From: Candidatus Kapaibacterium sp.
Lineage (GTDB): Bacteria; Bacteroidota; Ignavibacteria; Kapaibacteriales; UBA4661
Length of the DNA: 33,880 bases
Reading direction: 5' to 3'
Assembly (NCBI GenBank): GCA_004292595.1
Contig: RDXM01000117.1
Coordinates: forward strand, 1 to 33,880
Shown: positions 3,687 through 33,880 of the stretch, piece by piece
Layout: every line of letters starts with the position of its first letter
Position numbering within the stretch: position 1 is the first letter of the stretch
Program-made: the position numbers and the translations under genes
Notes under the pieces: model-generated
Databases searched by the model: none
What the model was told of the DNA's origin: nothing
The model's input: only the letters and a program-made list of their open reading frames with translations

Positions 3687-3697
3687 TTAAGGACTCC
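3683..3697 (-). promoter_or_regulatory. ATGA stop-start overlap with ribosome-binding site, giant protein 1 to OmpA 1
   Basis: Read on the - strand, the giant protein gene ends in TGA, which shares bases with the ATG of the OmpA gene (ATGA, 3686-3683). GGAG (3697-3694) lies seven bases before the ATG. This arrangement typically gives reinitiation or coupled translation. It decides in favour of the long OmpA start that includes the repeat-encoded leader, although an internal start at 3578 cannot be excluded. Confidence 0.6.
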
Positions 3698-7966: not shown

Positions 7967-8029
7967 ACCTATCAATCCTAGAAAATGAAAAATATTTTTG
8001 TTCAATTTGCTAAATTTCTGATACACAAT

Positions 8030-10962: not shown

Positions 10963-10974
10963 TTTACCACCTCC
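10959..10974 (-). promoter_or_regulatory. ATGA overlap with strong ribosome-binding site, giant protein 2 to OmpA 2
   Basis: On the - strand GGAGGTGG (10974-10967) lies four bases before the ATG at 10962, and that ATG overlaps the TGA of the giant gene. The SD-like run is also coding for the last residues of the upstream protein. It supports coupled translation starting upstream of the repeat. Confidence 0.6.
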
Positions 10975-13900: not shown

Positions 13901-16253
13901 CGACGGCAGGATTGATAAGGCTAAAAATGATGTCGCCAATATTTGCAAAAAAACTGCTCTGCAAAGTACATCGCACTTCGACTGCCGATACAATACGCAC
14001 CATCTCTGGCGCGACGGGCAGTCCGCCAAATTCTATCTGCATATTTTGTGCAAAGTTTCTTCCACGAACAATGACCTCACGCATCGGTGAGCCAACGATG
14101 GCACTATCGCTACTGAGGCTTGTAATCACGGGCGCAGAGGCAGTTCTTGGCGGCAGAGCAGTCGTGAAAAAACTGTTATCCGCCGTGCCGAGCGCGAGCG
14201 CGGTATCGGTGTCGGCAAGCGTCAAAACATTGCGAATGGTGCTTGGTGAAATGCGACTCCACGTGCGCCCGTTGTCGCTGGAACGATAGATTCCAAGCGA
14301 TGTTGCGGCGTAAAATGTGCCTTGCCGTTCCAGAAAAGCATTCACTGTGCCAAGGTCGTTTGAATTCGGCTGCAAAAGCCACGTCGCGCCATTATTGCTG
14401 GAACGGTAGATTCCTTGCGGTGTTGCGGCGAGAAGCGTTTCAGATTCCCATGCCGCTCCGAGTGCGGAAATTGCGAGCTGCGATGTCCAACGTGGCGCAG
14501 GAACTAAGCTCCAACGGTCGCCATTGTTGATGCTTTCTGCCAAGCCAGAATTTGTTCCTGCGAAAAGGCGTTGCCCAAAGGCAAGAATGCTATTCACACT
14601 TGCAGTAAAATCAGTTTGAACGCGCATCCACGTTGCGCCGTCGTTACTGGAGCGGATAACTACCCCATCTTTCGCACCAGCATAGAAGCGTCCGCTCCCA
14701 GAAGCCGCTTGCGTACTTGCTTGCACGGCAAAACTCGTTATTTCTGTGCCTGAGGTTTCTCCATCGGCGGCTTTCCACGCAAGATTTGGTGAGCTTTGCG
14801 AAGGAATTGGCGTGGTAAAAATTCCTGTTTGCGTTGTGAGAACAAAACGATTTTTTCCTGAGAAAATGCGCGGCGGCACAACGGCTGTTTGATTAGGATT
14901 GATGCGGCTGAGAGGCAAATTTACACCGAGATTTTGAAGACTTTGATTATCCGCAACAAAATGTGCTTGCGCCGACGAAAGCGATGCACGGAAAACGCCT
15001 TCCCGCGCCTGCACGGCAGCAAGCGTGTTCCCTTCCGAAGCGAGTGAAAATGAAGACGCGGCAATGCTTGAAAGACCAGTATTTATCGGCTGCCAGAGGT
15101 TTCCAGTGTTTTGATTTCCCCCAGTTTGATTTCCTCCATTCTCGGCGAAGCGAAAAACTCCTTGTCCACTCAGTAACAAAAGCTGCGTTGCGGCAGAATT
15201 TGCCGACGACGAAAACTCTGCAAACTGTATCACTTCGTCGTTTGCAGTGATGCCGTCCACGTCCACGCGCACCCAGGAGGAATCCTTTGTTTGTTCATTC
15301 GGTTTCCATTCCATGAGTCCCATGTTTGTTGCGGCAAAGAGACGATTTTGCCAGCGTTTGAAGGCATTTGCTGTTTGCGTTCCGCGATTCATTTCCAAGC
15401 CTTTGTTAATGGCTGTCCAACTCAACCCCGCATCATTGCTGGTGTAGATACCGTGATTGGTGGAAAGATACAACACATCTTCCTGAGAGGCATAGAACGC
15501 CAGCACCGTAACGGTCTGGCTGGGCGCGGAAAAGCTGACTTGCTGCCAGTTCGAGCCGTTATTGGTCGAGCGGAAAAGTCCGAGTCCGTTTGAACCGCCA
15601 AAGAGTGCTTTATTACTGGGGTTTCGGGGAGATTGATAGGAAACAATCGAATTGATAGAATTGCGCGATTGCTGAATCTGCGCCCACGACACGCCGGCAT
15701 CAATGCTGCGATAAAACAAGGTCGGAACACCAGTACCAATGCCCGTTCTGGCAAGTAAGGTATCTTGTCCCGATTCGACGATATGCGTAAACCCTTGCGC
15801 AACGCCCGTCGGCACAGTCCACGTGCGACCACTACTCACCGAGCGGAGAAGTTTTCCATTTCCCGCGCTTGCGTTGTACATCAGTAGTAGTGCGGGCTGC
15901 GTGGAATGTGCAATGGGAAAAAGCGTTTGGATATTGGTAGAATCGGGAACGCCTGTAAGGCGCACCCAGACTGAATCTTGAGGCGAACGCTGGAACATTC
16001 CGCTTTTTGTGCGCACGTCTTGATTGCTCGACACTATACCTACAAACAGCGTACTTCCTGAGCGCACGAGTGTTTTGGGAATGCCAGAAAAAGGACCGTT
16101 TGCGGGAAAAAATTGCGCCAGTTCAGAGAACTGTTGAGCGCGAAGATGAAGCGAAAACAAGGTGAATGAAGAGATAAGAAATAGTGCTGCAATGATGCTT
16201 GTGGGCATTTTTTTGAATGCCCAATGCAGCCTCAATCCCCTAGAATTGTGCAT
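10959..16253 (-). CDS. Giant secreted propeller/IPT/Ig-module protein with a T9SS sorting domain (2)
   Basis: This 1764-residue protein shares the plan of the product at 3683-7966. It has a signal peptide (either from the ATG at 16253 or, with a shorter n-region, from the ATG at 16208), ending LHLRAQ, and at least eight Asp-box-like (S/T)xxxGxxW blades spread over the first 690 residues. It then has two IPT/TIG-like domains (about 705-890, VIVRGRNF and ITLNGLNF), choice-of-anchor-like modules (SIDFRRVRVGS...), a fibronectin III-like domain (MSYHWSVRSV), another anchor-like module, a pre-terminal module with VLAEIP shared with giant protein 1, and a T9SS-like C terminus (NPLSGTVSFSV...NSLGKRI...LPTGSYFLVL). 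Surface display by T9SS is inferred; binding or adhesion is a guess. It is the first gene of the cassette operon, after a 224-base gap that contains the terminator of the preceding gene. Confidence 0.84.
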   Translation of the reverse strand: MHNSRGLRLHWAFKKMPTSIIAALFLISSFTLFSLHLRAQQFSELAQFFPANGPFSGIPKTLVRSGSTLFVGIVSSNQDVRTKSGMFQRSPQDSVWVRLTGVPDSTNIQTLFPIAHSTQPALLLMYNASAGNGKLLRSVSSGRTWTVPTGVAQGFTHIVESGQDTLLARTGIGTGVPTLFYRSIDAGVSWAQIQQSRNSINSIVSYQSPRNPSNKALFGGSNGLGLFRSTNNGSNWQQVSFSAPSQTVTVLAFYASQEDVLYLSTNHGIYTSNDAGLSWTAINKGLEMNRGTQTANAFKRWQNRLFAATNMGLMEWKPNEQTKDSSWVRVDVDGITANDEVIQFAEFSSSANSAATQLLLLSGQGVFRFAENGGNQTGGNQNTGNLWQPINTGLSSIAASSFSLASEGNTLAAVQAREGVFRASLSSAQAHFVADNQSLQNLGVNLPLSRINPNQTAVVPPRIFSGKNRFVLTTQTGIFTTPIPSQSSPNLAWKAADGETSGTEITSFAVQASTQAASGSGRFYAGAKDGVVIRSSNDGATWMRVQTDFTASVNSILAFGQRLFAGTNSGLAESINNGDRWSLVPAPRWTSQLAISALGAAWESETLLAATPQGIYRSSNNGATWLLQPNSNDLGTVNAFLERQGTFYAATSLGIYRSSDNGRTWSRISPSTIRNVLTLADTDTALALGTADNSFFTTALPPRTASAPVITSLSSDSAIVGSPMREVIVRGRNFAQNMQIEFGGLPVAPEMVRIVSAVEVRCTLQSSFFANIGDIIFSLINPAVGSIPSQQANTLFRVLDVSRTAPVLLSVQPDSLFVNEPEVITLNGLNFSNCAVSVNTEELTPTSNTGTRISLAIPLRLVNTLGTRQIEIRNRMTNERASFALRVVERPETPPVLGMETASLQEFRAYRTFPSDVQEFVLSATNAPNGVLLQVSRGFQLALNSGVWSSDSLRILPMTSTNQILPTRVAVRFFPQADFPINLTATQGTVRVLSGRQRIFLREIPLRGSLNVLALEISSSNSIDFRRVRVGSTTQAMVRVVNPSPLSFVVNVVQNTSQTSAVNSAFRVEPSTFTLDANAVQMLVVSYSPQQFGVEEGSVQLVGAASARLDFKGEGGQARFEFAKNEILFSTAAYVRQRRSFPTEQVTVRNTGTVEEEIRGVQFDKQGVFALANAAPMRLAAGQSTTLTLQVRPAIQQLSSRSSLEERVESRLQLVTQFPATQGNISVRAVLNVLPPPEILQPNNLSFASANLPSPTNTGFVSGTIARLQWQNVANADRYEWLWNNQIAQLLASRKNAESATSAVLMLTSNMSYHWSVRSVKLDAASQDTLVVSDWQEAAFFHTFAQIPPAVAQLSGLDFGETALERERQRVGMLGVPRDSILLQNLTILGDTAAFRISARPRDILGFAPLPSSIEYLAQYPLSLSFIPQEARNYAGRAVLSVQEPTRLYEWSIPLRGSGIICQSPPMPMFSCPEASFELRLVRANSPSGINTSSVNGQFLVGEPLLLQVRLREINAAAQVIQPRLRRVQLHIGVHNSSLSVISPTLRTGTPAKGREAEAVRVFPQPVRRGGGRERQDALISIDIERPLNAARDAVLAEIPVLATASLRNFGTSRNTALDSSVFFLAADPIWRDENDGVVPNMHTFSPPDSLRMRVNTCPDSVRLGTSLTTALHGAQNSKAALFLHSENPLSGTVSFSVVVRKEMPIEIDLINSLGKRIATTFQHNYALGEYRVDFPCTELPTGSYFLVLRTPFERIPYRVEVVK
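16202..16223. other. Perfect 8-bp hairpin over the internal ATG of giant gene 2
   Basis: TGGGCATT and AATGCCCA are exact inverted copies separated by six bases. On the - strand transcript the downstream arm contains the alternative start codon at 16208. If translation used that ATG the hairpin could mask it; if it starts at 16253 the hairpin is simply inside the signal-peptide coding region. It may be chance. Confidence 0.4.
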
Positions 16254-21212: not shown

Positions 21213-22511
21213 TTATAGCGAAATCACAATTTCACTTTGTGCCACAGCATTCACTGTAGAAGATTCAGTCATATTTTCCAGCATCGAATTTTCCTTCTTC
21301 TCTGCACATTTTTCTATCGCAAAGAGGGTAATATCGTCATCGTAGGAGTTGCTACCACGCCAAAGCCTGATTTCTGCGGCAAGCTCGGCAATAATTTCAT
21401 CTAGCGGCAATGTGGCATAGTTAGTAAGTGTTTCAATGAGGCGTTCTTGCGAAAATTGCTCTCCAAAACGGTTTTCGCATTCGGTAATGCCATCAGTATA
21501 GAAAAATAAACGGTCATTCAGATTGAGCGTGATTTCAGTTTGGTCATAGACCATATCGGGAAGCATTCCAATCGGTACACCGCCAGCTCCTTCGACGAGT
21601 TCAGCAGAGCCATTTGCACGAAGTAGAATTGCTGGTGGATGCCCTGCTTGTGCCAACGTGATGTGTGATGTCCGTACATCCATTACGCCGTACATCATGG
21701 TAAAATAGTTCATTGCATCATGTTCATTTTGCGAAGCGTTATTGAGTTCGTAGAGTGCCTCTGCGGGCGGGCGGATGTACACGTGTGGCATGAAGGAAAT
21801 ATCGTCTTTCAGCAATCCCGCTTGACCATTAGCGGCAGACAAGGTTTGATGTAACATTACCGAGGTCATCGCAGAGGGAATACCATGCCCAGCAACATCA
21901 ACAATATAAAAACCAGCATGATTATTATCTAATCGCAAAAAATTGATACTATCGCCACCAATGAATGCTGCTGGAACATAGAGCCAATCATAGCGGTACC
22001 CTTGCGCCAAAAATGGTTGGGATTCCTTTTTATCTGGCAATAAACTCTTTTGCAAACTCGCTGCTGCCCGTAAGTCTTTCTGTAATGATTCTTGTGCTTC
22101 TCGGAGTTTTTTATTGCGCTCTTCTAAAATTTTTTCTAGCTGAATCACGCGCTCTCCCGCACGAATACGCACCCGTAACTCTTCTTTATTGAACGGCTTG
22201 CCCATAAAATCATCCGCACCAGCTTCCATGCCTTCTACCAAATCTACTTGGTCACGTCGCGCCGTGAGCAAAATCACGTACACATAACGGTCGAAATAAT
22301 CATCTTCGCGCAAACGACGGCAAAACTCAATACCATCCATCAACGGCATATTCCAATCGCTGACAACAAATTGAACTTGGTCATTTTCTTCTAAAATATG
22401 CCATGCTTCGGCACCGTTTTGAGCCAGAACAACGTCATGCCCCCAGTTTTTCAAAAACTGCATGAGCAACAGGCGCATATCTTCATTGTCGTCCACAACC
22501 AAAATTTTCAT
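21213..22511 (-). CDS. Response regulator fused to SpoIIE/PP2C-type serine phosphatase (RsbU-like)
   Basis: The 432-residue protein starts with a receiver domain (1-120): acidic pair Asp7-Asp8, phospho-acceptor Asp52 in SDWNMPLMDG, Thr83 and Lys105 in GKPF. A coiled coil follows (about 122-158), then a SpoIIE/PP2C domain with IGGDSINF (184-191), DVAGHGIPSAM (205-215), FYTDGITE and a late SYDDDITLFAIEK. These metal-binding Asp residues are intact, so it should be active. Enzymes of this build dephosphorylate anti-sigma-factor antagonists in partner-switching systems; no anti-sigma or antagonist gene is visible here. The last 30 residues are a nonconserved tail. It lies downstream of the polysaccharide genes and, like the Hpt and kinase genes at the other end, suggests phosphorelay control. 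Confidence 0.9.
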   Translation of the reverse strand: MKILVVDDNEDMRLLLMQFLKNWGHDVVLAQNGAEAWHILEENDQVQFVVSDWNMPLMDGIEFCRRLREDDYFDRYVYVILLTARRDQVDLVEGMEAGADDFMGKPFNKEELRVRIRAGERVIQLEKILEERNKKLREAQESLQKDLRAAASLQKSLLPDKKESQPFLAQGYRYDWLYVPAAFIGGDSINFLRLDNNHAGFYIVDVAGHGIPSAMTSVMLHQTLSAANGQAGLLKDDISFMPHVYIRPPAEALYELNNASQNEHDAMNYFTMMYGVMDVRTSHITLAQAGHPPAILLRANGSAELVEGAGGVPIGMLPDMVYDQTEITLNLNDRLFFYTDGITECENRFGEQFSQERLIETLTNYATLPLDEIIAELAAEIRLWRGSNSYDDDITLFAIEKCAEKKENSMLENMTESSTVNAVAQSEIVISL

Positions 22512-22552
22512 ATGCCTTCCAAAATACAGAAGTATTACTAAAATTAGGCTTC

Positions 22553-22630
22553 AGTGGCTTGAGACTTCATATCTGTGTTTGCAGTCGAAGTACTGCACCA
22601 ACACTCACAGACAAGAAATCTCAAGCCACC
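22553..22630. repeat. 78-bp palindromic repeat, copy C (diverged arms, pairing kept)
   Basis: Arms lie at 22553-22577 and 22606-22630 (21 of 25 pair) around a 28-base loop, the same geometry as copies A and B. Outer arm positions 7-9, 11 and 12 differ from A/B, and both arms changed together, so pairing survives. The inner motif CACAGACAAGAA is retained on the right arm. This copy is intergenic, between the barrel gene and the regulator gene, and has stop codons on the - strand. The loop carries its own small hairpin (GCAGT/ACTGC). Confidence 0.8.
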
Positions 22631-22656
22631 ACTTGATATTTTTGTATGGTGCAAAG

Positions 22657-23748
22657 CTAAAAAACGAAACTCCACGAAAGCGACAACGTGCCGTCGAGTA
22701 AGCCTTTGAGCTTTGCATTGCTAGGATTCCAAGGAAAGCGACCACCGACATGGTTATTGTATTGCACCGAAAGTGTGTAGGGATGCCAATCAAAAAAGCC
22801 AATACCATATGTGAAATCGGGATCCCATGGTTGCTGCTGTCCATGAATTGGATACCAAAATACGGTAAAATTTGCGTAAATCTGCTCATAAATTGTGTAT
22901 TTCGTCGAAAAACTGAGTGCAGTTTTCCAATAGCCTAGCTCATCATGTTTCGCGCCTTGAATACGATACTGCGGATGGATATTCAAATGCAAGCTATGAC
23001 CAATGCCTCCACTTGGATGCACGACGCACAAATGCTCAATAAGTTTGGCAGATGGAAATTTCCAACCGAGTGAAAAGTTCCCTTCCCAAAAGCGTGTAAC
23101 GACTTCCCCACTGGCAATACTTGGAAAAAGGCGATTGCCTTGATGATTAGAATACACAAAGCTAAAAGTATACGGATGCCAATCGTTGTAGCCGAAACTG
23201 TAGGTAAAATCAGGATTCCAGCTTTGTTTTTGGCTCGGAAAAAAATAGCGCATCACCGAGACACTCACAAACCAATAGGAAATTGGCTTGTAGGACAGTG
23301 AAAGCCCTAACACCGCCGATGACAAGGCAACACCTTGCGAATTACTACCATTCTCTGGCTGAGAAGCGGCATCACTTAATGGGTAGGTAGCAGTAATACC
23401 TCCGCTCAAACCATCAACATGATTGTTTTTCAGAAAATCTTCAAACGGAAATTCAAACGATGTTTTCATGTTCGACCAGATATTTTCCCATGTTTCGTCT
23501 TCTCGTACATCTGGCTCTGCGGGAATAGATTTCACTGCTTTTGGTCCTGCGCCATCAAACTGCGACTGAAGCCCACCGTACTTGTTGATAGAACGAATTG
23601 TTGATGCTGAAGGAGAAGATTGTGCAGGAGAGCTGCTCACAGTCGTATTTGGCGTGGAAGATTTTTGCTGACAGCGCAGAGAAATAGGAAGGATTCCAAA
23701 CGATAAACAGAATCCTACAACGGCAAGATATGGAAAAACAAATCGCAT
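22657..23748 (-). CDS. Putative outer-membrane beta-barrel protein with internal duplication, polysaccharide locus
   Basis: I do not recognise a named family. The 363-residue protein has a signal peptide (about 1-27), a low-complexity Ser/Thr region, and two homologous units at about 147-231 and 279-361. Each carries W(N/D)PDFTYxxGxxDWHPYTxSxxYxNHxGxR inside alternating aromatic/hydrophobic strands. It ends in SLSWSFVF, and a C-terminal Phe on a final strand is the usual beta-barrel assembly signal. An export pore or outer-membrane docking role for the neighbouring synthase is inferred from location only. A strong SD, AGGAGG, precedes the ATG. It is 29 bases downstream of the GH16-like gene. 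Confidence 0.65.
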   Translation of the reverse strand: MRFVFPYLAVVGFCLSFGILPISLRCQQKSSTPNTTVSSSPAQSSPSASTIRSINKYGGLQSQFDGAGPKAVKSIPAEPDVREDETWENIWSNMKTSFEFPFEDFLKNNHVDGLSGGITATYPLSDAASQPENGSNSQGVALSSAVLGLSLSYKPISYWFVSVSVMRYFFPSQKQSWNPDFTYSFGYNDWHPYTFSFVYSNHQGNRLFPSIASGEVVTRFWEGNFSLGWKFPSAKLIEHLCVVHPSGGIGHSLHLNIHPQYRIQGAKHDELGYWKTALSFSTKYTIYEQIYANFTVFWYPIHGQQQPWDPDFTYGIGFFDWHPYTLSVQYNNHVGGRFPWNPSNAKLKGLLDGTLSLSWSFVF

Positions 23749-23753
23749 AATAA

Positions 23754-23759
23754 CCTCCT
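23754..23759 (-). promoter_or_regulatory. Strong Shine-Dalgarno for the barrel gene
   Basis: On the - strand AGGAGG lies five bases before the ATG at 23748. Most genes of this window show no SD this good, so this gene may be translated at a higher level than its neighbours, and the start is well fixed. Confidence 0.75.
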
Positions 23760-23777
23760 ATATTCAAGTCTTGTTGC

Positions 23778-24830
23778 TTATTCCGACCGATAGATAATTT
23801 TTTTGATAACCACTTCGATTGGCTTGTTATCAATCGGTGTACCCGCACACCACAGACGAAGGCGCAGTGTATTGGTTGGTGTTGGTTCAGGGACAGTTAT
23901 ACCTGTGGCAGGCGAAGCGGAAAAATCCCATAATGCCGCTAAGTATTTACTCGGTAAACCATGGTCGTGGTAGCTTGCAAACTCACAGCTACGACGCTTC
24001 CACGTTATGGCGTGTGTGGAAAATAAGCCTCCCATTCTAAAAGGCTCATCTGAACGAAAGACTTTTTCTTTGCGCTCTACCACAAGATTCTGCTCACTAT
24101 TTGCAACAAGATAGCGAAGCGGCGAGAGAGTTTGCTCGTATAATCTTGTGCATTGCAAAGCAAGCATTGGTGCGGTATAGGAATCCATCGCTCTATCGGG
24201 CGTTATCGAAAATTCAAAATGCACATTGGGTGCAAATTCATCAAATTTTGTTTCTGCAAAAAAGGCATATGTGCCGTACCCAAAACTGGTATCAGCAGCA
24301 ACATCAACACCATACCACGAGCCATCACGCTTGTTGATGACTACATGCAGCTTGTTTTGCTCATCAACAAAAATTTCTGTTGGCTTGCCAGAAAAGAGAG
24401 TATTGAAAGGTTCGCCGCGCTCATTGGTATTACGGGCAATCCATCGTATTCCGCCAAAAAATACTGTATCTGGAGGCAGAGCGTTGGTGCTAGGCTTCGA
24501 TTGTGTTTCGCCACTGCCCTCTTCGTCATGGCGAAGAATAATTGATTGCGCCTCAGACTCGCCTTCTTTTTCTTGTTCTTTTTGTTGTTCCTTTTCCTTG
24601 CGCAAACGCTCATCAACCGCCTTTTGCATTGCTGGTGGCAAAGGCGGCAGCACACGTTCTTTCGAGAGTGGAATTTTCTTTGGTTGTTTGGATTCCGAAT
24701 TACCTGTGCCGCCTGTTTGATACTGCGCAAAAGCGATACTTGCTTGCAGCAGCAACAACAAGCACAAATATCCCACAATCTTAATTAGATTTTTTAAGCG
24801 GGAAACATTTTTTGAGGAGCTTAAATTCAT
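23778..24830 (-). CDS. Secreted GH16/laminarinase-fold protein lacking the catalytic ExDxxE motif
   Basis: From ATG 24830 the protein has 350 residues: signal peptide (about 13-36, LCLLLLLQASIAFAQ), a charged Lys/Glu/Gln-rich spacer (about 50-115), then a concanavalin-like domain (about 124-350). The order GGIRWIARNTNERG, KLHVVINKRDGSWYGVDV, FGYGTYAFFAETKFDEFAPNV and ITWKRRSCEFASYH matches GH16-type glucan hydrolases. Where GH16 enzymes carry ExDxxE this protein reads NVHFEFSITPDRAMDS, so catalysis by the usual mechanism is unlikely and glycan binding is more plausible. The start overlaps the upstream DUF3131 gene by 50 bases. The frame is open back to an ATG at 24956, but that gives no signal peptide at the N terminus. 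Confidence 0.65.
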   Translation of the reverse strand: MNLSSSKNVSRLKNLIKIVGYLCLLLLLQASIAFAQYQTGGTGNSESKQPKKIPLSKERVLPPLPPAMQKAVDERLRKEKEQQKEQEKEGESEAQSIILRHDEEGSGETQSKPSTNALPPDTVFFGGIRWIARNTNERGEPFNTLFSGKPTEIFVDEQNKLHVVINKRDGSWYGVDVAADTSFGYGTYAFFAETKFDEFAPNVHFEFSITPDRAMDSYTAPMLALQCTRLYEQTLSPLRYLVANSEQNLVVERKEKVFRSDEPFRMGGLFSTHAITWKRRSCEFASYHDHGLPSKYLAALWDFSASPATGITVPEPTPTNTLRLRLWCAGTPIDNKPIEVVIKKIIYRSE

Positions 24831-26187
24831 CACGGAGATAAATGCGGTAAAGGTCGTCTTCTTCGTGGGCTTGCTCATACAGCCGCCCCGATTTTTTAAA
24901 CATGAGGGATTCCAAAACAATAGCATTTGTTTGACAAGTAAGTGTGCGCACTGCATCGCCAGTTTTCTCTAAACGCCCTTCGTACCAGCCACGAGCAGGG
25001 TCGAAAAGCGAACTCGTGATAAGCATGAGCAAATCGGTGTAGGGTGTTTTGAATGCTGCCCACATTGCAAAAGCGGCTTTTGTGGAAACAGCCGAATGTT
25101 GAGGGAAATAAACACCAGAACTTGAAATGGTTGTCCATTTGTAGCCGTTAGAAAATACAGCATCATACACGGTGAATGGCTCTGTTGATACTTCATGTTT
25201 TGCCCGCGCCGTAAAAATATCCTCGCGCTCATGCCGTCGTTTCTGAACTTCATACACATTCAAAATCTGTTCGTAGTAGCGTTTATCCAGAGAAAGATAC
25301 GGAATGTTTTCCCAACCAAATTCCAATAACGTGAGGAAATATGGCATACTCGTTACTGCATTGTTGCTATTACTTGCACGCTCATCATTACCATCAAAAT
25401 AGATTTCAATATCGTTTATGCGAATTGTTTCAACGGGGTCGATAGTTGAAGTGGCTTCCATGTCGAATCCCCATGCTTTGAAACTGCGAGCAGTGTATTC
25501 CTTCAGTCCGTGTTTAGCGTCCAAAAATTTTGCTGCTTTTTCATTCACATTGACTGCGCTGTACAAGTTTCCTTCTCTATCAACACAATTACAGAATGAC
25601 CAACGCAAAATCACTCTATCAACGTACTCGCCATAGTAAGCATATTTATTGCGCAGAAGGCGCAGCACCGTCATCAAACGTCCAATATGATGCACTTGCC
25701 AGCCGATAACTCCTGGCTTTGCGGCATAGTTGAGGGCTTGCATATTGACCGAATGATAATTCACATTTGGTAGCTCGCCAAATGCTAATTTCATTGTATT
25801 CAAAAACCCAAACACCAAACTTAAACGTCTATCAAATTCATGCTTACCAATCACGTCTAATTCCCGCGCTGCCATCAGCGCAACAATATAATCGCCAATA
25901 CTTTCCATCGTTACCACTTGTGAAGCATCTTTCGCATTTACTAAGCCAGTTTGTGGGTTATAGTTATTTTCAAAATACTTCCATGCAACCTTTGCCCACA
26001 ACTGCTCTTCGTCGCTTAAACGCCCACGCCGCCCTTCTTTGAACACATTCACCGCTTTTTCCGTACCTTCATCTATGGAACGAACAATTACCCCACACGA
26101 ACACACAAACACAAGACACAGAACGGCACACAAAGAATATATTTGCCGAAGAACGTGTGTTTGTGAAGAGTGAGAAGGCTGTTTCAT
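24781..26187 (-). CDS. DUF3131-family lipoprotein, divergent paralogue
   Basis: The 468-residue protein is the third and most divergent of three adjacent paralogues. It has a lipoprotein-type signal (VFVCSC, lipid-attachment Cys31 predicted) and then the family domain from about residue 57: DEEQLWAKVAWKYFENNY, TGLVNAKD, ELPNVNYHS, VYDAVFSNGYKW and FDPARGWYEGRLEKTG. The other two have TMWD, GR(I/L)GYEEY and SExYxLDGxE at matching places; here these read TMES (93-96), HGLKEY and SMPYFLTLLE. The lost acidic residues suggest a binding or structural role. DUF3131 proteins are predicted helical-barrel proteins found beside glycan synthases; no activity is established from this sequence. It follows the second paralogue by 18 bases. 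Confidence 0.8.
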   Translation of the reverse strand: MKQPSHSSQTHVLRQIYSLCAVLCLVFVCSCGVIVRSIDEGTEKAVNVFKEGRRGRLSDEEQLWAKVAWKYFENNYNPQTGLVNAKDASQVVTMESIGDYIVALMAARELDVIGKHEFDRRLSLVFGFLNTMKLAFGELPNVNYHSVNMQALNYAAKPGVIGWQVHHIGRLMTVLRLLRNKYAYYGEYVDRVILRWSFCNCVDREGNLYSAVNVNEKAAKFLDAKHGLKEYTARSFKAWGFDMEATSTIDPVETIRINDIEIYFDGNDERASNSNNAVTSMPYFLTLLEFGWENIPYLSLDKRYYEQILNVYEVQKRRHEREDIFTARAKHEVSTEPFTVYDAVFSNGYKWTTISSSGVYFPQHSAVSTKAAFAMWAAFKTPYTDLLMLITSSLFDPARGWYEGRLEKTGDAVRTLTCQTNAIVLESLMFKKSGRLYEQAHEEDDLYRIYLRDEFKLLKKCFPLKKSN

Positions 26188-26205
26188 AAATGTACCGATG
26201 CTCTA

Positions 26206-27636
26206 TCATTGCTTTAGTGCGCTTTCAAGCGGCTTTCGTTGTCGTTCGTAAATATAACTATTTTTGGGTTCTTCGCGGTTGCGCAATGTTTTATCCCATT
26301 TACTATCGCGCCCAGAAAAACGGACGAGTTTGCCTTGCATTTTATACAGCAAGGTTTCGAGCATAATTCCGTTGTTGTTCATCGTAAAGGCTTTGATAAG
26401 GTCATGTCCCTTACGTTCAAATATGCCTTCGTAGTAGCCTTTTTCAGGGTCGTAAGCATTTTTGATATAATTAAAGAGAGAATCCGTATATTTTGTCTGC
26501 CAGAGAGACCATAGCCCCAATGCGCCCTTCAAGGCAACGGCAGAATACTGCGGAACGTGTTTTCCCGTTTCAGTAATCGTATTCCAAGGATAACCATCGG
26601 TAAAAATTGCATCATAGACAAAATACGGGTCGCCGTCAAGTTGATGCTCCGTGCGAGCAGTCATAATGCCTGTTCTGCGGAATCGCTCCTCTTGCACTTT
26701 GTAAATGCGTTGTGCAAAATCAGCAATAACTTTATCGGTATGCTCGTCGTCGCGCGAGATTCTATCAAAACCAGAATCCCAGTTTAATTCAATTCCATCA
26801 AGCACATAGCTTTCCGAAACGACGTAGTTATGTGCGCCTAGCTCACGCGGGTCGCGTGTGTCGTAGGGAATTTCGATACCGTTAATAGTGCGCGTGTCGT
26901 AGGGTTCTGCTTTGGCTGCCATTCCAGTTTCAAAGCCCCACAGCTGAAAACATTTTGCGGAGTATTCTTCATACCCTAAACGCCCTTCCTGCAAATACTT
27001 CACTACTTTTTTTACTTTACCATCTTTATCTTTTTTATCCTCCAGTGAAGCACCGTACAGAATACCAATACTGTCAATAACGTTTTTAAACTTCCACCGC
27101 AAAACAACATCATCAATGCGGTCGCTGTGCTGCTCGTAGCGTTCTTTAATAACTTTAGACCACAGCAAAAAGCGTGCTAAATCAATCGCCGAAAAGCCAA
27201 TTTCCATTGGTTGATTGCCATAATTGACCTTTTGTGCCGTAATTGTATTGTAGCATTTGTTCGGCAGTTCATCACGAAACAAGGAAACTTTCTGAAATGT
27301 TGCAAACATTTTCGTAATACGCACATCGAAAAGCTCTGGTGTGATAATGCCCATCTCCCGCACCGCGACAAGTGCCGCCATATAGCCCGCGATATCCCAC
27401 ATCGTTGTGGAAGGATATTTATCTACCGCATTGACAAGCCCCGTTGTATCTTGATAATTGCGCTCGAAATACTTCCATGCGCGGCGAGCCATCGTCATTT
27501 CCTCTTCCGTTAATGCGCCACTTCTGCCTGGATGCCGCCCGTAGTCTCGCTGCGGAAGCTGTGCAGAAAGCGAATCTGCGAAAAAGAATACACTGCAAAC
27601 AAGCAGAAACCCAGATATGATGCGATATGTAAGCAT
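26206..27636 (-). CDS. DUF3131-family secreted protein, motif-intact paralogue
   Basis: The 476-residue protein has a cleavable signal peptide (1-26, DSLSAQ) and then the family domain from about residue 42: TEEEMTMARRAWKYFERNYQ, TGLVNAVDKYPSTTMWD (65-81), ELPNKCYNT, GRLGYEEYSAK, SESYVLDGIEL, FVYDAIFTDGYPW and YDPEKGYYEGIFERKG. The conserved Asp/Glu residues and the aromatic-rich barrel pattern look like those of an (alpha/alpha)-barrel carbohydrate-active protein, but the reaction is not known to me. A lysine-rich insertion (KDKDGKVKKVVK) in the middle is absent from the other two. It should be periplasmic or surface-exposed. It lies 78 bases after paralogue 3 and 18 before the lipoprotein. 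Confidence 0.82.
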   Translation of the reverse strand: MLTYRIISGFLLVCSVFFFADSLSAQLPQRDYGRHPGRSGALTEEEMTMARRAWKYFERNYQDTTGLVNAVDKYPSTTMWDIAGYMAALVAVREMGIITPELFDVRITKMFATFQKVSLFRDELPNKCYNTITAQKVNYGNQPMEIGFSAIDLARFLLWSKVIKERYEQHSDRIDDVVLRWKFKNVIDSIGILYGASLEDKKDKDGKVKKVVKYLQEGRLGYEEYSAKCFQLWGFETGMAAKAEPYDTRTINGIEIPYDTRDPRELGAHNYVVSESYVLDGIELNWDSGFDRISRDDEHTDKVIADFAQRIYKVQEERFRRTGIMTARTEHQLDGDPYFVYDAIFTDGYPWNTITETGKHVPQYSAVALKGALGLWSLWQTKYTDSLFNYIKNAYDPEKGYYEGIFERKGHDLIKAFTMNNNGIMLETLLYKMQGKLVRFSGRDSKWDKTLRNREEPKNSYIYERQRKPLESALKQ

Positions 27637-27714
27637 ATTTTTGGAAAAATATTGAGGTAGTTCTTGAGCGCGAAGACCATTTCGTTCTTTAGGAAGTTCA
27701 GGAAGAATAAAGGT

Positions 27715-29064
27715 TTAATTCAACAATTTCAAATGTGGTCCAAATTTTTTATAGCACAATGCTTCCAAAATAATCGCGTTGGTATTACACGTAATTGCCT
27801 TGTTTGGCTTGCCTGTTTTTTCGTATAAGCCTGAATACCAGCCTTTTTCAGGGTCATACAAAGAAATTGTCTTTTCAAGAAGTTTTTTTGTATAGGGAGT
27901 TTGATACAACGAATACCATCCAAAAACGGCTTTCGTACTCATGGAGCGGAATTGCGACACGTCTTCACCTTTATCGGTAATACAGCTCCACTGCTTGCCT
28001 GCTGTAAAGACGGTATTATAGACAAAATATGGTACTGTATCGATATTATCCTCGCTCACCGCCGTTAGAATACCTGTACGATTGAAACGCTCCTCCTGTG
28101 CGCGATAGACACGATAGGCAAACTCACGAGAATAATTATCAAAACCATATTCCAAACCATCCAGAATGTACGGTTCGCTAACCACGTAATTAAAAGCCTT
28201 GTAGCGGTCTGGTGTGCGGCTGTCGGTAGGAATTTGTACGCCGTAAATGTTTTCGTATTGCAAGAAGTCATCGTACTTTAATGCGCCAAAAACATCTGTA
28301 CCCATGATAGAATAGGATTTTGCAGCATACTCTTCATACCCAATGCGTCCTTCCTGCGGATATTCCGTGCGATTGCTATCGCCGACGACCGCGCCAAACA
28401 TAATACCACCCTGAACAACGTGCGAAAAGCGAAAACGCTTGATAACGCCTCGCACTTGCCCTGCAAATTCAGGATATTCCCACGTCAGAATATTCATTGG
28501 AACGAATAACCGCCCTACGTCAATGGCAGACCAGCCAATACCGCGTGGCGAGGGCGTATTGTCGTAATTTGCCATTTGCTTGGTTTTCGTATTATACGAT
28601 TTATTTGGCAATTCTTTGTCATACAACGGCAATCCAGCGAGGGCTTGTAAACACGTACTGATGCGCTTTTGGAATACTTCTTCCGGAATAACGCCCAATT
28701 TGTATGCAGAAATCACGCCCATTAAATACGACCCTGTGTCCCACATCGTCGAAGCTGGATATTGGTCCACAGAGTTCACCAAGCCCGTTTGTTCTTGATA
28801 ATTTCGCTCGAAATACCTCCATGCAATACGCGCAAACTCTTGTTCCTGCGGCGTTAAATCGCTCGACGGAGGCGCGGGGATGCCTTTGGAGGTGTCCACC
28901 AAAAAGACATTGCCAGATGTAGTGAGACCACGCAAAAGACGTTGGTTTTTTGCAATCGTCAAATCTGACGAATCAATACCAACAATTATTCCCACCGATG
29001 TAAGCAATCCGAGAATAATCACAATGCGGCTTCTGGCAGCTTTGAGACCTTGTGTGAAGTTCAT
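27715..29064 (-). CDS. DUF3131-family protein with N-terminal membrane anchor, motif-intact paralogue
   Basis: The 449-residue protein has one hydrophobic helix (13-30, IVIILGLLTSVGIIVGID) and no obvious cleavage site, so it is probably tethered to the inner membrane facing the periplasm. The family domain starts near residue 70: TPQEQEFARIAWRYFERNYQ, TGLVNSVDQYPASTMWD (93-109), ELPNKSYNT, GRIGYEEYAAK, SEPYILDGLEYG and YDPEKGWYSGLYEKTG. It is clearly closest to the paralogue at 26206. Being first after the synthase gene (69-base gap) and membrane-tethered, it is the one best placed to act on the nascent polymer; that is inference. Confidence 0.82.
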   Translation of the reverse strand: MNFTQGLKAARSRIVIILGLLTSVGIIVGIDSSDLTIAKNQRLLRGLTTSGNVFLVDTSKGIPAPPSSDLTPQEQEFARIAWRYFERNYQEQTGLVNSVDQYPASTMWDTGSYLMGVISAYKLGVIPEEVFQKRISTCLQALAGLPLYDKELPNKSYNTKTKQMANYDNTPSPRGIGWSAIDVGRLFVPMNILTWEYPEFAGQVRGVIKRFRFSHVVQGGIMFGAVVGDSNRTEYPQEGRIGYEEYAAKSYSIMGTDVFGALKYDDFLQYENIYGVQIPTDSRTPDRYKAFNYVVSEPYILDGLEYGFDNYSREFAYRVYRAQEERFNRTGILTAVSEDNIDTVPYFVYNTVFTAGKQWSCITDKGEDVSQFRSMSTKAVFGWYSLYQTPYTKKLLEKTISLYDPEKGWYSGLYEKTGKPNKAITCNTNAIILEALCYKKFGPHLKLLN

Positions 29065-29133
29065 GAAGATTCAAAAATAGGTGATAGATTCGTTGTATTC
29101 TTCCTGTACTCTATGACGGGAAGACGAAAAAAA

Positions 29134-30927
29134 TTAGTTTTCTTGCGGCTTCCAGAGTGCAGCCATTACAATTCCGCTCATAGCGAAGATGTTCACGCCG
29201 CCCCAAAAACAATTAGTAATGAAACCAGAATAGTTACTATTTTTTCCCAGAGCAAGCATTATTCCTGCGTACAATAACCCAGCAAGCGTAAGAACAATAA
29301 TGACTAATTGCGGAATAACAAGACGCAAAAAATTTCCTTCTTGGCGGCTTTTGGGCGTTACGGGAAATTTAATTTTTTCACCACGCAGAACCGTCCAGAT
29401 AGCGCGGAGATTCACAGGAAAGAAGGAAAGATAACTTGCCATTCCCTGCCAGCCCGGTACGCCCCACGTGCCAACTAAAAAAGCGCATTCTGTCGCTATA
29501 ATAAACGGAAGGAAATGCACCGCAAACGCCATAGAATCAGCATTGACGGGCGAAACGCCGCTAAATAAATAGATAATGGGCGATAGCAAAAAAATGATAT
29601 TCCATAAGCCTGCCAAATATGAAAAAAATGTCGCAAAGTACATCATTCGCTGCGCCCACGAAAGATTGCTCCGACGGAAAAGCGGATTGTCGCGCAAGAA
29701 AATATCCAGTGAGCCGCCTGCATACTTGAATCGCTGAATTGTCCACGACAATAGGTCTTGCGGCGAGAGCATTTTCGATTCTACGTGCGGATGATAGACC
29801 GATTTCCAGTTGCGTTCTTTGTAGGAATGAAGGACGATAGACGTGTAAATATCTTCCGAAACGTGGAATTTATACGGCACAACTTCCGTTTCCAATGCAA
29901 GTTCTTTACGCATCACATCGGCAAGATTTGTGCGCAATTCTTCGCTTTCAATGTCGCTAGTCATCTTGCGAATATGCCCATCAATAGCATCAGAATACGT
30001 CTGCATTGCCGCTTGCATCACAGCCTCGCGCCGATGCACCGACCCAGCACCACAGCAAAAAGACGCATTTGCCCAGTTTCGACGACGTTGAATCACATCA
30101 AAGAACATTTGCGGGTCGTTCACAAATACATCATTCCCAACACGAATTTCTCCAAGAACCGCTTCAATGCTTGCACCAACGGCATAGCCTGGAAACCACA
30201 AATACCGTTTGAGCCAATGCTTGAGCGGGATGCCTTCGGTCAAATCAAAAAACCATTGTGGAGTTTGAACCCACGCCACGTCTGGGTCGCGGAAGTAGCC
30301 AAGCGTATGCTCAAGAAGCGTTGGAAAGGGACGCGTATCGGCATCGCAAATCACGATAAAATCTCCGTGCGTCTGCTCCATCGCATTGCGCAAATTTCCT
30401 GCTTTGAAGCCGAGATTATTATCTCGCGTAATGTAGTTTACGCCTTCTTCTTCGGCTACGCGGCGCATTTCCTCGCGTTTGCCGTCGTCCAACACATGAA
30501 TCACAATTTCGATTGGATGGGAGTAACGCATATTTTTCGCATCACGTATTCCAAGCCGCACCAAATCTACTTCTTCATTAAACGTTGGAAAAAAAACATC
30601 AACCGAAATACATCCCTCTGGCATTTTTTCGCGCACACAATCATTGATAAGGCGCGGTGCATCTTGCACTGGCGTATCTTCGACCTTCCATAAATTAAAT
30701 GCAAAAATCGCTAAACCAATATACGATATTGTTTCAGCACACAACAACGGCAAAGAAAACCATACTGCTTTCCAGTTGATACTGTGCATCCATCGCCACG
30801 AAATATACCACGCACCTAAACTAAGAGCAACCGTCGCCAAAAACTGCCAGAGCAGTTCTCTCCCAACCGAATGCGGAATCGGCGGTGGTGGTGTGCGATG
30901 TTCAAAAGGTGTAAAATAATGTTGCAT
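29134..30927 (-). CDS. Processive GT2 polysaccharide synthase (cellulose-synthase-like)
   Basis: From ATG 30927 the protein has 597 residues; the frame is open to a TTG at 31008. Two N-terminal membrane helices (about 24-44 and 55-80) precede a cytoplasmic GT-A domain, followed by about four C-terminal helices. Synthase motifs are FFPTFNEE (112-119), DDG (147-149), DAD (195-197), QTPQ (221-224), FCCGAGSVHRR (290-300) and SED (357-359, TED in BcsA). The acceptor-site motif normally QxxRW reads QRFKY (398-402). No PilZ domain follows, so c-di-GMP control through the protein itself is not expected. The product is unknown; cellulose should not be assumed. The gene lies upstream of three DUF3131 genes and 84 bases after the Hpt gene. 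Confidence 0.87.
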   Translation of the reverse strand: MQHYFTPFEHRTPPPPIPHSVGRELLWQFLATVALSLGAWYISWRWMHSINWKAVWFSLPLLCAETISYIGLAIFAFNLWKVEDTPVQDAPRLINDCVREKMPEGCISVDVFFPTFNEEVDLVRLGIRDAKNMRYSHPIEIVIHVLDDGKREEMRRVAEEEGVNYITRDNNLGFKAGNLRNAMEQTHGDFIVICDADTRPFPTLLEHTLGYFRDPDVAWVQTPQWFFDLTEGIPLKHWLKRYLWFPGYAVGASIEAVLGEIRVGNDVFVNDPQMFFDVIQRRRNWANASFCCGAGSVHRREAVMQAAMQTYSDAIDGHIRKMTSDIESEELRTNLADVMRKELALETEVVPYKFHVSEDIYTSIVLHSYKERNWKSVYHPHVESKMLSPQDLLSWTIQRFKYAGGSLDIFLRDNPLFRRSNLSWAQRMMYFATFFSYLAGLWNIIFLLSPIIYLFSGVSPVNADSMAFAVHFLPFIIATECAFLVGTWGVPGWQGMASYLSFFPVNLRAIWTVLRGEKIKFPVTPKSRQEGNFLRLVIPQLVIIVLTLAGLLYAGIMLALGKNSNYSGFITNCFWGGVNIFAMSGIVMAALWKPQEN

Positions 30928-31011
30928 AATGACATTGTGAATGTGGATGCAGATTTCAGGAAAAATACTGCACAAAGTATGTGAGTGTACGTTTGCAGCA
31001 CGGCACAAAGT

Positions 31012-31329
31012 TTATTCATCAATAAACTCAATTTTCACTGTGTTAATGTATTGTTCTAGCTCATACAACTGCCCCTCAATACTTATTCCATCCGATTCTT
31101 TGGCAGCATTTTCAAAAGATTTTCCAATTTCTGTGATATACTGAAAACCATACGAAGCTCCTGTTCCCTTCATTGTATGTCCAATATTTCGTATTTCCTC
31201 AAATTTACCGCTCTCAAGTAATTCTTTGATTGTCGCAATATCTTTCTTTCGATTGGAAAAATAACGTTCCAGAAGTGGCTCAAGATCGCGGGAAACTTGT
31301 GCGAAATATTGAGGAGAAGAAGTGTTCAT
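31012..31329 (-). CDS. Stand-alone histidine phosphotransfer (Hpt) protein
   Basis: From ATG 31329 the protein has 105 residues; the frame is open to a TTG at 31428, but that extension is not Hpt-like. The helical bundle carries the phospho-acceptor motif GHTMKGTGASYGF, with His51 and the usual HxxKG spacing. Hpt proteins shuttle phosphate between receiver domains. It is encoded directly downstream of a hybrid kinase with two receivers, so it is probably the kinase's relay partner, and upstream of the polysaccharide synthase. A candidate acceptor is the receiver-phosphatase at 21213. No Shine-Dalgarno sequence is clear. Confidence 0.87.
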   Translation of the reverse strand: MNTSSPQYFAQVSRDLEPLLERYFSNRKKDIATIKELLESGKFEEIRNIGHTMKGTGASYGFQYITEIGKSFENAAKESDGISIEGQLYELEQYINTVKIEFIDE

Positions 31330-31590: not shown

Positions 31591-33880
31591 CTACTTTTTG
31601 TTACCGCCTTTTTGAGTGGAAACAACGTTTTCTTGCGCGGCAAAATACGCTCTCAAATCAGCAGCGACAGTACGAATGGTCTCTAATCCTTCCTTCGTAT
31701 AGCATTTTGTACATCCAACGTCGAGAGTGCGTTGTATTTCTTTTTCACCATTGTGTCCGGTCATTGCAAATATAGGAATTGTGCGCCCTTTGGGCATTTG
31801 TCGTAATATGCGCGTTGCTTCATAGCCATTGATAATCGGCATTTCCATATCCATAATAACAGCATCAACATCATGTTCTTGGAACAATTCTATCGCTTCC
31901 TGACCGTTGGAGGCGAGCAGAAGATGATAGCATTGTTCCTTCTCAAGTTGTAGCTGTAGCACAAGACGAAAATCCTCGCTGTCATCAACAAGAAGAATGT
32001 TGGTGCGTTGTTCAAGCCATTTTTCAATCATATCATTCAGCTGTTTTTTCTTCACGGGCTTGGCAAGGTAATCGTTCATGCCGATTGCAAGGCACTTTTC
32101 ACGATAATGTTCCATGACGTGCGCCGTGATTGCAATAATAGGAACACGCGGATTGTTATGGATTTTTTCTTGTTCACGAATTACTTTGGTAGCCTCAAAA
32201 CCATCCATAACTGGCATTTGAATATCCATCAATACAAGGTCGAATGGTATTTGGGCTACACGCTGTTCTTCAAAGCACTGCACCGCTCTTTCCCCATTTT
32301 CAGCAAATGAGAGATGATACGACAATGAAGGATTTGAAGAATGAGAAAGAAACGTTTCTGCAAGATTGCGATTGTCTTGGTCATCATCAACCACTAAAAT
32401 ACGAATATTTTTTCTTGGATGTTTATTTTCCACGACATTTTTCTGCGCATTTTCAGGGAACGTACTGCTCTGAATAGCGGATGATACGTTACTTGCTGAG
32501 TCATCATGTACATTAATTGCGTGAGCAGTTTTAGGCAAGGCATCCTCTTCTCGCTCTTCTCGTGAAGAATCTTTTTGTATTGACGAAGATGGCGAAAAAG
32601 ACATTTCTGCTTCGTTTTGCAGCTCTGAACCGTCGTCAATAGCTAGGAATATATGAAAAACACTCTTTTTTTCCAAATCTTGTTCCAACCAAAGCAAACC
32701 ACCCATTTTCTGGACAATCCCACGCAGCAAGGTAATTTGCAAACCCGCCGGGTGGAATATTTCTTTGTTGGAATGCTCATCCATAAACGGCGCAAATACT
32801 TTTCTCTGCACATCCTGCCGCACTGTGCCATTCAGAATATACAACGACAAGGATAATCCGCTATTTCCAGCGTATTTTTCCAAAAACTCAATATCAATGT
32901 GCAATGTACCGCCTTCGGTAAATTGCATTAAATTTTCGCAGAGATTCAAAACAATTTGATACAAGCGAACTGGGTCGCAATACAGCATTTGCGGTGTGTG
33001 TGGGGCAAATTGAATATGCAACTCCGTTCCCTTTGCAAATAATCGGTATTGCAGCACTTCAGAGATATTATTCATTAAAATACTGAGGTCGGCATTGGTA
33101 TTTTGAATTTCTAATGCGCCACTTTGAATTTTTGAATACTCCAGAATATCGTTGATGAGTGTCAGCAGCACGTCCGATTTCGACTGCGCAATTTCCAGTA
33201 TCGAACGCTGCTCTGCATTCAGCTCCGAATACCGTAAAATCTCAATCATTCCCATAATGCCGTGAAGCGGAGTACGCATTTCATGGCTCACACGCGAGAT
33301 AAAATCTTGCTTTATCTGCTCCAAATGCTGAACATCGCTGACATCCTGCGCCGTAAAGAGCAAGCCCGTGGCTGCACCAGCACTATCTTTGAGCAAGCGG
33401 ATGCGCATATCGGCAGACACCGTGCCACCATGCTTTTCTCGAAAGGTAGAGCGTTGAATATAATTTCCAAAATGCTCTGCTGTCAAAAAAAAGGTCTCAA
33501 GGTCGCCTGCAATCTCTTTCCCGAAGGATTGCAGCAGCGTTTTTTTCTTTTCGTATAAGTCGTCCAGCGTAAAAAAATCCGTGATGTTTTTTTCACCAAT
33601 CACTTCATCTGCCGTATAGCCGAGCATATATTCGGCGGCATTGTTGAAAACAGAAATTATACCGTGAAGGTCGCAGGAAATCACAGCAGAAGAGATATTT
33701 TCTAATACAAGAGAATGTAGCGACAAAAGCTCTTCCAAATACTCCTGTATTTCCTGACGCTCGGTTACATCCCGCGCAATTCCCAAATATCCCACAAACA
33801 TTTCGTTGTCGTAGAGCTTCGTAAAGCTCTGCTCTACCCAGCGCGTCGTACCATTGGCATTCACAATCGGAAAATTCATG
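31591..33880 (-). CDS. Hybrid histidine kinase with two PAS, degenerate ATPase domain and two receiver domains (5' partial)
   Basis: The visible 762 residues are cut by the window edge inside a PAS domain (NANGTTRWVE...GIARDVTERQ, 7-42); the edge Met is probably internal. A second PAS follows (about 55-180), then HisKA with SHEMRTPLHGIMG (His199), a HATPase-like region (about 300-410), receiver 1 (491-620; Asp552 in MDIQMPVMDG, Lys607) and receiver 2 (627-745; Asp677 in MDMEMP, Lys729). The N-box keeps Asn316 (NLCENLMQFT), but the G1 box reads YILNGTVRQD instead of DxGxG and the G2 box reads PAGLQIT instead of GxGLGL. ATP binding is therefore doubtful. The stand-alone Hpt gene lies downstream, so this may be a relay scaffold acting with another kinase. 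Confidence 0.88.
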   Translation of the reverse strand, partial: MNFPIVNANGTTRWVEQSFTKLYDNEMFVGYLGIARDVTERQEIQEYLEELLSLHSLVLENISSAVISCDLHGIISVFNNAAEYMLGYTADEVIGEKNITDFFTLDDLYEKKKTLLQSFGKEIAGDLETFFLTAEHFGNYIQRSTFREKHGGTVSADMRIRLLKDSAGAATGLLFTAQDVSDVQHLEQIKQDFISRVSHEMRTPLHGIMGMIEILRYSELNAEQRSILEIAQSKSDVLLTLINDILEYSKIQSGALEIQNTNADLSILMNNISEVLQYRLFAKGTELHIQFAPHTPQMLYCDPVRLYQIVLNLCENLMQFTEGGTLHIDIEFLEKYAGNSGLSLSLYILNGTVRQDVQRKVFAPFMDEHSNKEIFHPAGLQITLLRGIVQKMGGLLWLEQDLEKKSVFHIFLAIDDGSELQNEAEMSFSPSSSIQKDSSREEREEDALPKTAHAINVHDDSASNVSSAIQSSTFPENAQKNVVENKHPRKNIRILVVDDDQDNRNLAETFLSHSSNPSLSYHLSFAENGERAVQCFEEQRVAQIPFDLVLMDIQMPVMDGFEATKVIREQEKIHNNPRVPIIAITAHVMEHYREKCLAIGMNDYLAKPVKKKQLNDMIEKWLEQRTNILLVDDSEDFRLVLQLQLEKEQCYHLLLASNGQEAIELFQEHDVDAVIMDMEMPIINGYEATRILRQMPKGRTIPIFAMTGHNGEKEIQRTLDVGCTKCYTKEGLETIRTVAADLRAYFAAQENVVSTQKGGNKK

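Follow-up and report, generated by a model that had tools for sequence, protein, structure and literature searches.

The Sinorhizobium synthase BgsA is reported to be BcsA-like and to bear no recognizable cyclic di-GMP (c-di-GMP) domain (PMC5567048). The residues reported for the cyclic beta-glucan synthase TiCGS are E1356 (acid/base), E1400, E1442 (nucleophile), and H1536 (PMC10834661); those reported for the SGL clan in XcSGL are E239, F286, and Y367, in a clan-defining paper whose main text mentions no DUF (PMC12102758). A DUF3131 domain is named in a table entry for Brucella BMEI1837 ("DUF3131 domain-containing protein"; PMC6382750), and a 2026 paper lists three DUF3131 proteins, a cellulose synthase, OpgC, a hybrid kinase, and an anti-sigma factor with its antagonist as the content of Klebsiella pneumoniae "block 3b," without a function (PMC12974863). 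Here we analyze a 33,880-nucleotide stretch of DNA from Candidatus Kapaibacterium sp. (the window; contig RDXM01000117.1), in which nine adjacent minus-strand genes, running from 33879 to 21213, encode a hybrid histidine kinase, an Hpt phosphotransfer protein, a family 2 glycosyltransferase (GT2), three DUF3131 paralogues (a, b, and c), a GH16-like protein, a predicted outer membrane barrel, and a receiver-PP2C phosphatase. We propose, with a probability of about 0.62, that this module is a synthase-dependent system for beta-glucan assembly and secretion. It would work like other synthase-dependent secretion systems and is a member of neither the Bcs nor the Bgs type.

A first-pass annotation of this DNA had described a same-strand run from Hpt to PP2C and suggested a search for conserved neighborhoods of GT2, DUF3131, and barrel genes. 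Every gene that it named lies on the minus strand in the order given, and the three are adjacent in relatives and across phyla. Among the 41 genomes searched as relatives, the source genome included, DUF3131 occurs in seven, with three copies in each. The full order kinase-Hpt-GT2-a-b-c-GH16-like-barrel-PP2C is intact in three of them (G003, G005, and G006) and divided among contigs in two (G001 and G007); a further genome (G009) holds the order GT2, a, b, c, GH16-like, and barrel, and no Hpt match was found there. Upstream, relatives add a STAS protein, an RsbW-like ATPase, and a GH2 protein (L023 and L043), and G005 also has a DUF4301 protein. Single-query searches of the other contigs of the source genome located one, C142, that has RsbW at its start together with STAS (by homology) and DUF4301 orthologues, collinear with G005. 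The module in the source genome is thus broken by an assembly gap; in relatives, the true block takes in STAS, RsbW, and GH2 on its upstream side. In the source draft only a distant match to GH2 was found, which fits such a gap.

The same core, with STAS and the RsbW-like ATPase, is found in Gamma-, Beta-, and Alphaproteobacteria, Desulfobacterota, and Acidobacteriota. A cross-phylum scan of one genome per species returned at least 574 related stretches, of which the 80 loci with the best DUF3131 matches were fetched, from Vibrionaceae, Shewanellaceae, Ferrimonas, Enterobacterales, Burkholderiales, Desulfoluna, Electrothrix, Thermoanaerobaculia, and others. Gene counts in these loci rest on a simple open reading frame (ORF) caller and, given how the loci were chosen, are upper estimates. 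DUF3131 was counted in 77/80 (the ORF caller missed it in the remaining 3), GT2 in 74/80, and the barrel in 60/80. Among regulators, the receiver-PP2C protein was present in 64/80, RsbW in 55/80, STAS in 50/80, and the hybrid kinase in 25/80; accessory genes encoded GH2 (45/80), a sugar nucleotidyltransferase (36/80), OpgC (27/80), GH9 (17/80), and GH16 (12/80). Of 87 loci, 51 have each of the three paralogues once and only once, indicating that the three are an old set. In 64 of 74 adjacent pairs, DUF3131a starts before the end of the GT2 gene, often by 4, 11, or 14 bases, some overlaps being inflated by long ORF starts. A chance neighborhood is ruled out by this conservation across phyla.

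The central result of this analysis is the placement of DUF3131. The three window proteins match the Pfam family at 495, 411, and 323 bits (cutoff, 20.3 bits). The first-pass annotation had assigned them three different anchoring modes, which we confirmed from the sequence: paralogue a (27715 to 29064) has an uncleaved N-terminal helix as a membrane anchor, b (26206 to 27636) has a signal peptide and is secreted, and c (24781 to 26187) is a lipoprotein with the lipobox FVCSC. An AlphaFold model of paralogue b (mean pLDDT, 92) was compared with solved structures, and the first 15 matches were all beta-1,2-glucan enzymes or uncharacterized "putative glucoamylase" relatives. The (alpha/alpha)6 fold aligned with the TiCGS cyclization domain (GH189) at Z 34.5, with NdvB/Cgs at 29 to 31, with GH144 and its relatives at 27 to 31, and with GH162 at 24 (members down to 23.7); enzymes of other families scored 21.4 or less. 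At the sequence level, the DUF3131 profile matched 8wy1 at an E value of 7e-6 (hmmsearch), and profile-profile alignment (hhalign) gave 3e-7 to GH189 and 5e-6 to GH144, compared with 2e-7 for GH144 against GH189. By both fold and sequence, DUF3131 is a relative of the GH144/GH162/GH189 enzymes (SGL superfamily). We take the Brucella gene BMEI1837 to be a cyclic glucan synthase gene. Among open-licence papers, three name DUF3131 (PF11329, IPR021478), none of them dealing with what it does, and no functional study of it or of module parts was found.

Candidate catalytic residues could be mapped onto paralogue b. By residue spacing, TiCGS E1356, E1400, and E1442 each land on a glutamate and H1536 on a histidine in a cyclic glucan synthase domain, and all four positions are invariant in seven such domains. 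E1356 corresponds to the invariant acid of GH144, located in GYSEA; in the hhalign alignment this motif pairs with DUF3131 GYEEY and hence with E224, the residue to which XcSGL E239 also maps; F286 and Y367 of XcSGL are not mappable without superposition. E1400 and E1442 were mapped by eye to E283 and E330, respectively; when only the C-terminal halves were compared, hhalign yielded no usable alignment. An early reading of the active site, with E283 as the acid and the GYYE glutamate as the nucleophile, was dropped when TiCGS spacing and the GH144 alignment placed the acid at E224 and the nucleophile at E330, with E283 as E1400. The window copy of b keeps all four mapped glutamates (E224, E283, E330, and E403). 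In 92 b paralogues, E224, E283, and E403 are invariant, and position 330 is occupied by E 86 times and by D 6 times. In paralogue a, position 403 is mostly S, A, or T and position 224 mostly E or Q, and in paralogue c the position mapped to the nucleophile is variable (K in the window). This pattern suggests that b may be the full enzyme and that a and c are probably specialized or partly inactive.

The GT2 (29134 to 30927, with the internal ATG at 30927 as its likely start) retains LDDGK, CDAD, FCCGAG, SED, and FPVTPK, and carries QRFKYAGG at the site of the QxxRW motif of cellulose synthases. QRFKY (QRYKY once) is present in 77 of 78 relatives, and QxxRW is present in none of the 78. The protein is 26% identical to Escherichia coli BcsA, scores 223.5 bits against the curated BcsA model and so falls below its cutoff of 699.1 bits, and has no PilZ domain by Pfam. 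In a tree, the module synthases form one clade (100/100) apart from a clade that unites BcsA and BgsA-like proteins (100/100), although the branches are long; the rhizobial entries are named BgsA from their position and HlyD neighbors, and a divergent Nostoc entry falls outside. No BcsB (PF03170) or BcsC (PF05420) was found in the source genome or four relatives (0/5 genomes) in searches for which the E. coli control was positive, in line with the first-pass annotation. That annotation had left room for the synthase to group with a known one, and no such grouping appeared. By sequence, then, the GT2 is classed as neither BcsA nor BgsA, and a cellulose synthase proper is ruled out by the BcsA score, the separate clade, QRFKY in place of QxxRW, and the missing BcsB and BcsC.

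The strongest competing explanation is that the product is a cellulose-like or mixed-linkage (1,3;1,4)-beta-glucan exopolysaccharide and that the DUF3131 proteins are plain endoglucanases trimming the chain, as BcsZ does for cellulose. The nearest solved chains to the GT2 are those of BcsA, the FxVTPK gating-type motif is kept, and lichenase-like GH16 and GH9 endoglucanase genes are among the neighbors; GH9 lies inside the locus in G003, G006, and G009, as the sole GH9 of each of those genomes, and none was found in the source genome. The synthase features just described, with a score of 223 bits against the BcsA model, a clade of its own, QRFKY throughout, and no BcsB or BcsC, speak against this explanation, as does DUF3131, which lies nearer to beta-1,2-glucan enzymes than to BcsZ/GH8. 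We regard it as a real contender that nevertheless falls short of an even chance.

The barrel protein (22657 to 23748), which the first-pass annotation had called a duplicated barrel candidate, carries the motif WNPDFTYxFGY..DWHPYT.S..Y.N..GNR twice and forms 12 strands in its model (pLDDT, 74; good past residue 110), and its C-terminal residue is Phe, as in 44 of 68 cases. Foldseek placed FapF and NanC on top; VIA-align gave Z 12 to NanC, KdgM, and VhGalP, with autotransporter barrels similar, so that no single family stands out. From the model, the protein is a putative outer membrane pore. A relative of the module barrel was observed among phage tail genes on a plasmid of Edwardsiella tarda FL6-60 (L037, 10737 to 11609; CP002155.1, 15736 to 16608), adjoining a Lom-type gene and a tail fibre gene.

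Two further readings are each considered unlikely. One is an osmoregulated periplasmic or cyclic glucan, in which the GT2 makes the backbone, DUF3131 cyclizes it, OpgC acylates it, and the product stays in the periplasm, leaving the barrel as a release or reuptake pore only. The nearest match of DUF3131, the cyclization domain of cyclic glucan synthase, favors this reading, as does the OpgC-type acyltransferase in 27/80 loci and, outside the module, in the source genome. Set against it are a GT2 with no significant BLAST similarity to OpgH and a barrel frequent enough in the fetched loci to suggest a role beyond incidental leakage. The other, about equally unlikely, is a "split" glucan synthase under the control of a partner switch, in which free-standing GH189-type DUF3131 proteins would cyclize or relink the product of the BcsA-like GT2 in the periplasm, and an acylated cyclic or relinked beta-glucan would exit by a 12-strand pore of its own; such a secretion route would be both widespread and of a kind without earlier description. 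That the locus instead serves uptake or turnover, with the barrel importing oligosaccharides, DUF3131, GH2, and GH9 degrading them, and the GT2 serving something else, would accord with the uptake porins NanC, KdgM, and VhGalP among the nearest barrels, with the GH2 and GH9 neighbors, and with the cellobiose phosphotransferase system (PTS) genes adjoining one Pantoea copy, yet it is improbable given a GT2 nearly as constant as DUF3131 and usually overlapping DUF3131a, and no inner membrane sugar importer among the named conserved neighbors.

The regulatory genes stand at both ends of the block. The hybrid histidine kinase (PAS-HisKA-HATPase-REC-REC; 31591 to 33879) is part of the module and is cut by the contig end, losing its N terminus; the sister-genome protein (G005) has 1,071 amino acids. 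Pfam confirms Hpt (31012 to 31329; HTMKG motif), which probably begins at the internal ATG at 31329, the outer coordinate given in the first-pass annotation, as well as the GT2, and the receiver and SpoIIE/PP2C domains of the phosphatase (21213 to 22511). A phosphorelay from kinase through Hpt to the receiver on PP2C is plausible. PP2C in the window co-occurs with RsbW and, by homology, STAS at the edge of contig C142 (Pfam assignments are from the sister-genome copies), and the whole resembles a partner switch of the PP2C/STAS/RsbW type that receives its input from the phosphorelay. No sigma factor was found among the named conserved neighbors, so the switch may act on the synthase itself or on a target farther away. 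DUF4301 adjoins or is fused to STAS in L167 (5754 to 7427) and L044 (15580 to 17601), the latter being the fusion in G009. A weak match of the fused protein to the UDP-glucose pyrophosphorylase family suggests that DUF4301 may supply sugar nucleotides under the control of STAS. In a Salmonella plasmid copy, DUF3131 and the hybrid kinase are separated by a small globin gene (L036, 8546 to 8980), genes of similar size occur in several other copies, and a heme-NO-binding domain gene stands beside one alphaproteobacterial copy (L038, 13235 to 13777), hinting at oxygen or NO sensing.

Taken as a secretion system, the module would operate as follows. The BcsA-like GT2 would polymerize and extrude a glucan, probably from UDP-glucose, and the membrane-anchored DUF3131a, translationally coupled with the GT2 in most relatives, would receive the chain. 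Periplasmic DUF3131b would cut, transglycosylate, or cyclize it by a GH189/GH144-like mechanism; the lipoprotein DUF3131c, altered at the mapped nucleophile, would hold or guide it at the outer membrane; and the 12-strand barrel would let the product cross. The hybrid kinase/Hpt phosphorelay would drive the receiver-PP2C, which would dephosphorylate the STAS protein held by the RsbW-like kinase and so turn the system on. The UDP-glucose-pyrophosphorylase-like DUF4301, the NTP-transferase, OpgC, and lichenase-like GH16 neighbors point to glucan as the product, and the GH9 beta-glucanase inside the locus in G003, G006, and G009 also favors our proposal. The first-pass idea of a polysaccharide locus stands as to synthase, envelope processing proteins, barrel, phosphorelay, and cross-phylum adjacency, and is refined in two respects: as relatives of GH144/GH162/GH189, the DUF3131 proteins are more than the "handling" set it had envisaged, and the regulation resembles a partner switch. 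Several points weigh against our proposal. Linkage and catalysis are predictions; the neighboring hydrolases vary by version (GH9, GH16, and GH2), so the linkage is not fixed; E330 was placed without significant alignment of the C-terminal half; the barrel is as like uptake porins as exporters and could import or leak; and two genomes of the same genus, G002 and G004 (the latter 86% complete), lack DUF3131.

The GH16-like (concanavalin-like) gene (23778 to 24956, true start probably 24878 or later) is confined to the Kapaibacteria versions of the module. The first-pass annotation had read it as a GH16 fold without catalytic residues; the catalytic EIDIE stretch is indeed replaced, and the fold is weakly supported (no Pfam match; hhalign to the lichenase-type GH16 of sister clusters, E 0.01, probability 4%). 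Beyond PP2C, the window continues with a GT2 of another kind and methyltransferases, which are not in the module, as the flanks differ in G003, G006, and G009; in the near relative G005, however, homologues of two of these downstream genes flank the block. Elsewhere in the window, two very large secreted proteins whose repeats are of the BNR/Sortilin and ASH-type immunoglobulin kinds (3683 to 8026 and 10959 to 16253), one bearing a Por_Secre_tail sorting domain, alternate with two OmpA-domain proteins.

Outside the chromosomes, annotated plasmid copies carry the same set with OpgC. Sulfitobacter plasmids bear another two-gene pair, a 1,088-amino-acid glycosyltransferase and an 845-amino-acid DUF3131 protein (L040, 3337 to 9137). 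The Enterobacter copy of the module was not found in complete E. coli genomes by a search reaching near matches only. Many E. coli plasmids carry genes annotated as bcsA. A viral or mobile origin of DUF3131 gained no support from a protein query, which reaches close relatives only and found no relative in viral contigs.

The gene set is present in Enterobacterales (including, by description, the Klebsiella accessory block), Vibrio, Shewanella, and several other phyla, and no functional study of it was found. Placing DUF3131 with beta-1,2-glucan enzymes supplies a concrete substrate class and candidate catalytic residues. If our proposal is correct, the module would add a further synthase-dependent route for polysaccharides, equipped with processing enzymes, a pore, and a switch of its own, and an uncharacterized branch of the beta-1,2-glucanase superfamily.

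In comparison with known systems, the module shares with cyclic beta-glucan synthase the DUF3131 fold, similarity at the profile level, and probably the positions of the acid/base glutamate, E1400, and E1442, as well as a place next to a membrane glucan synthase and, often, OpgC-like acylation genes nearby. In contrast to the single fused NdvB/Cgs protein, it has stand-alone secreted or anchored DUF3131 proteins in three paralogues and a separate BcsA-like GT2, with no GH94 in the locus and with N-N or T-N in DUF3131 in place of HH. The fold and the general-acid motif (GYxEA versus GYEEY) are likewise those of the GH144/GH162 endo-beta-1,2-glucanases (clan GH-S), whereas DUF3131 is linked to a synthase and a barrel rather than to a degradation cluster. 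The barrel resembles the 12-strand oligosaccharide porins NanC and KdgM in predicted fold. All three protein types of the RsbU/RsbV/RsbW switch co-occur with the module, here with no sigma factor among the named conserved neighbors. As is reported for BgsA of the mixed-linkage glucan system BgsA/BgsB, the synthase is BcsA-like with no recognizable c-di-GMP domain, yet it falls in a separate clade, and no HlyD gene is present in the window module or among the named conserved neighbors. In its logic the module is like BcsABZC, with a BcsA-like GT2, a periplasmic (alpha/alpha)6 enzyme, and an outer membrane pore; it differs from Bcs in lacking PilZ, BcsB, and BcsC, in QRFKY for QxxRW, in a 12-strand barrel without TPRs, and in having partner-switch regulators rather than a PilZ c-di-GMP site. 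The locus was first called undescribed, which agrees with our literature search as to function; its gene content had already been listed for Klebsiella block 3b (PMC12974863), which, judged by description alone, is the same module.

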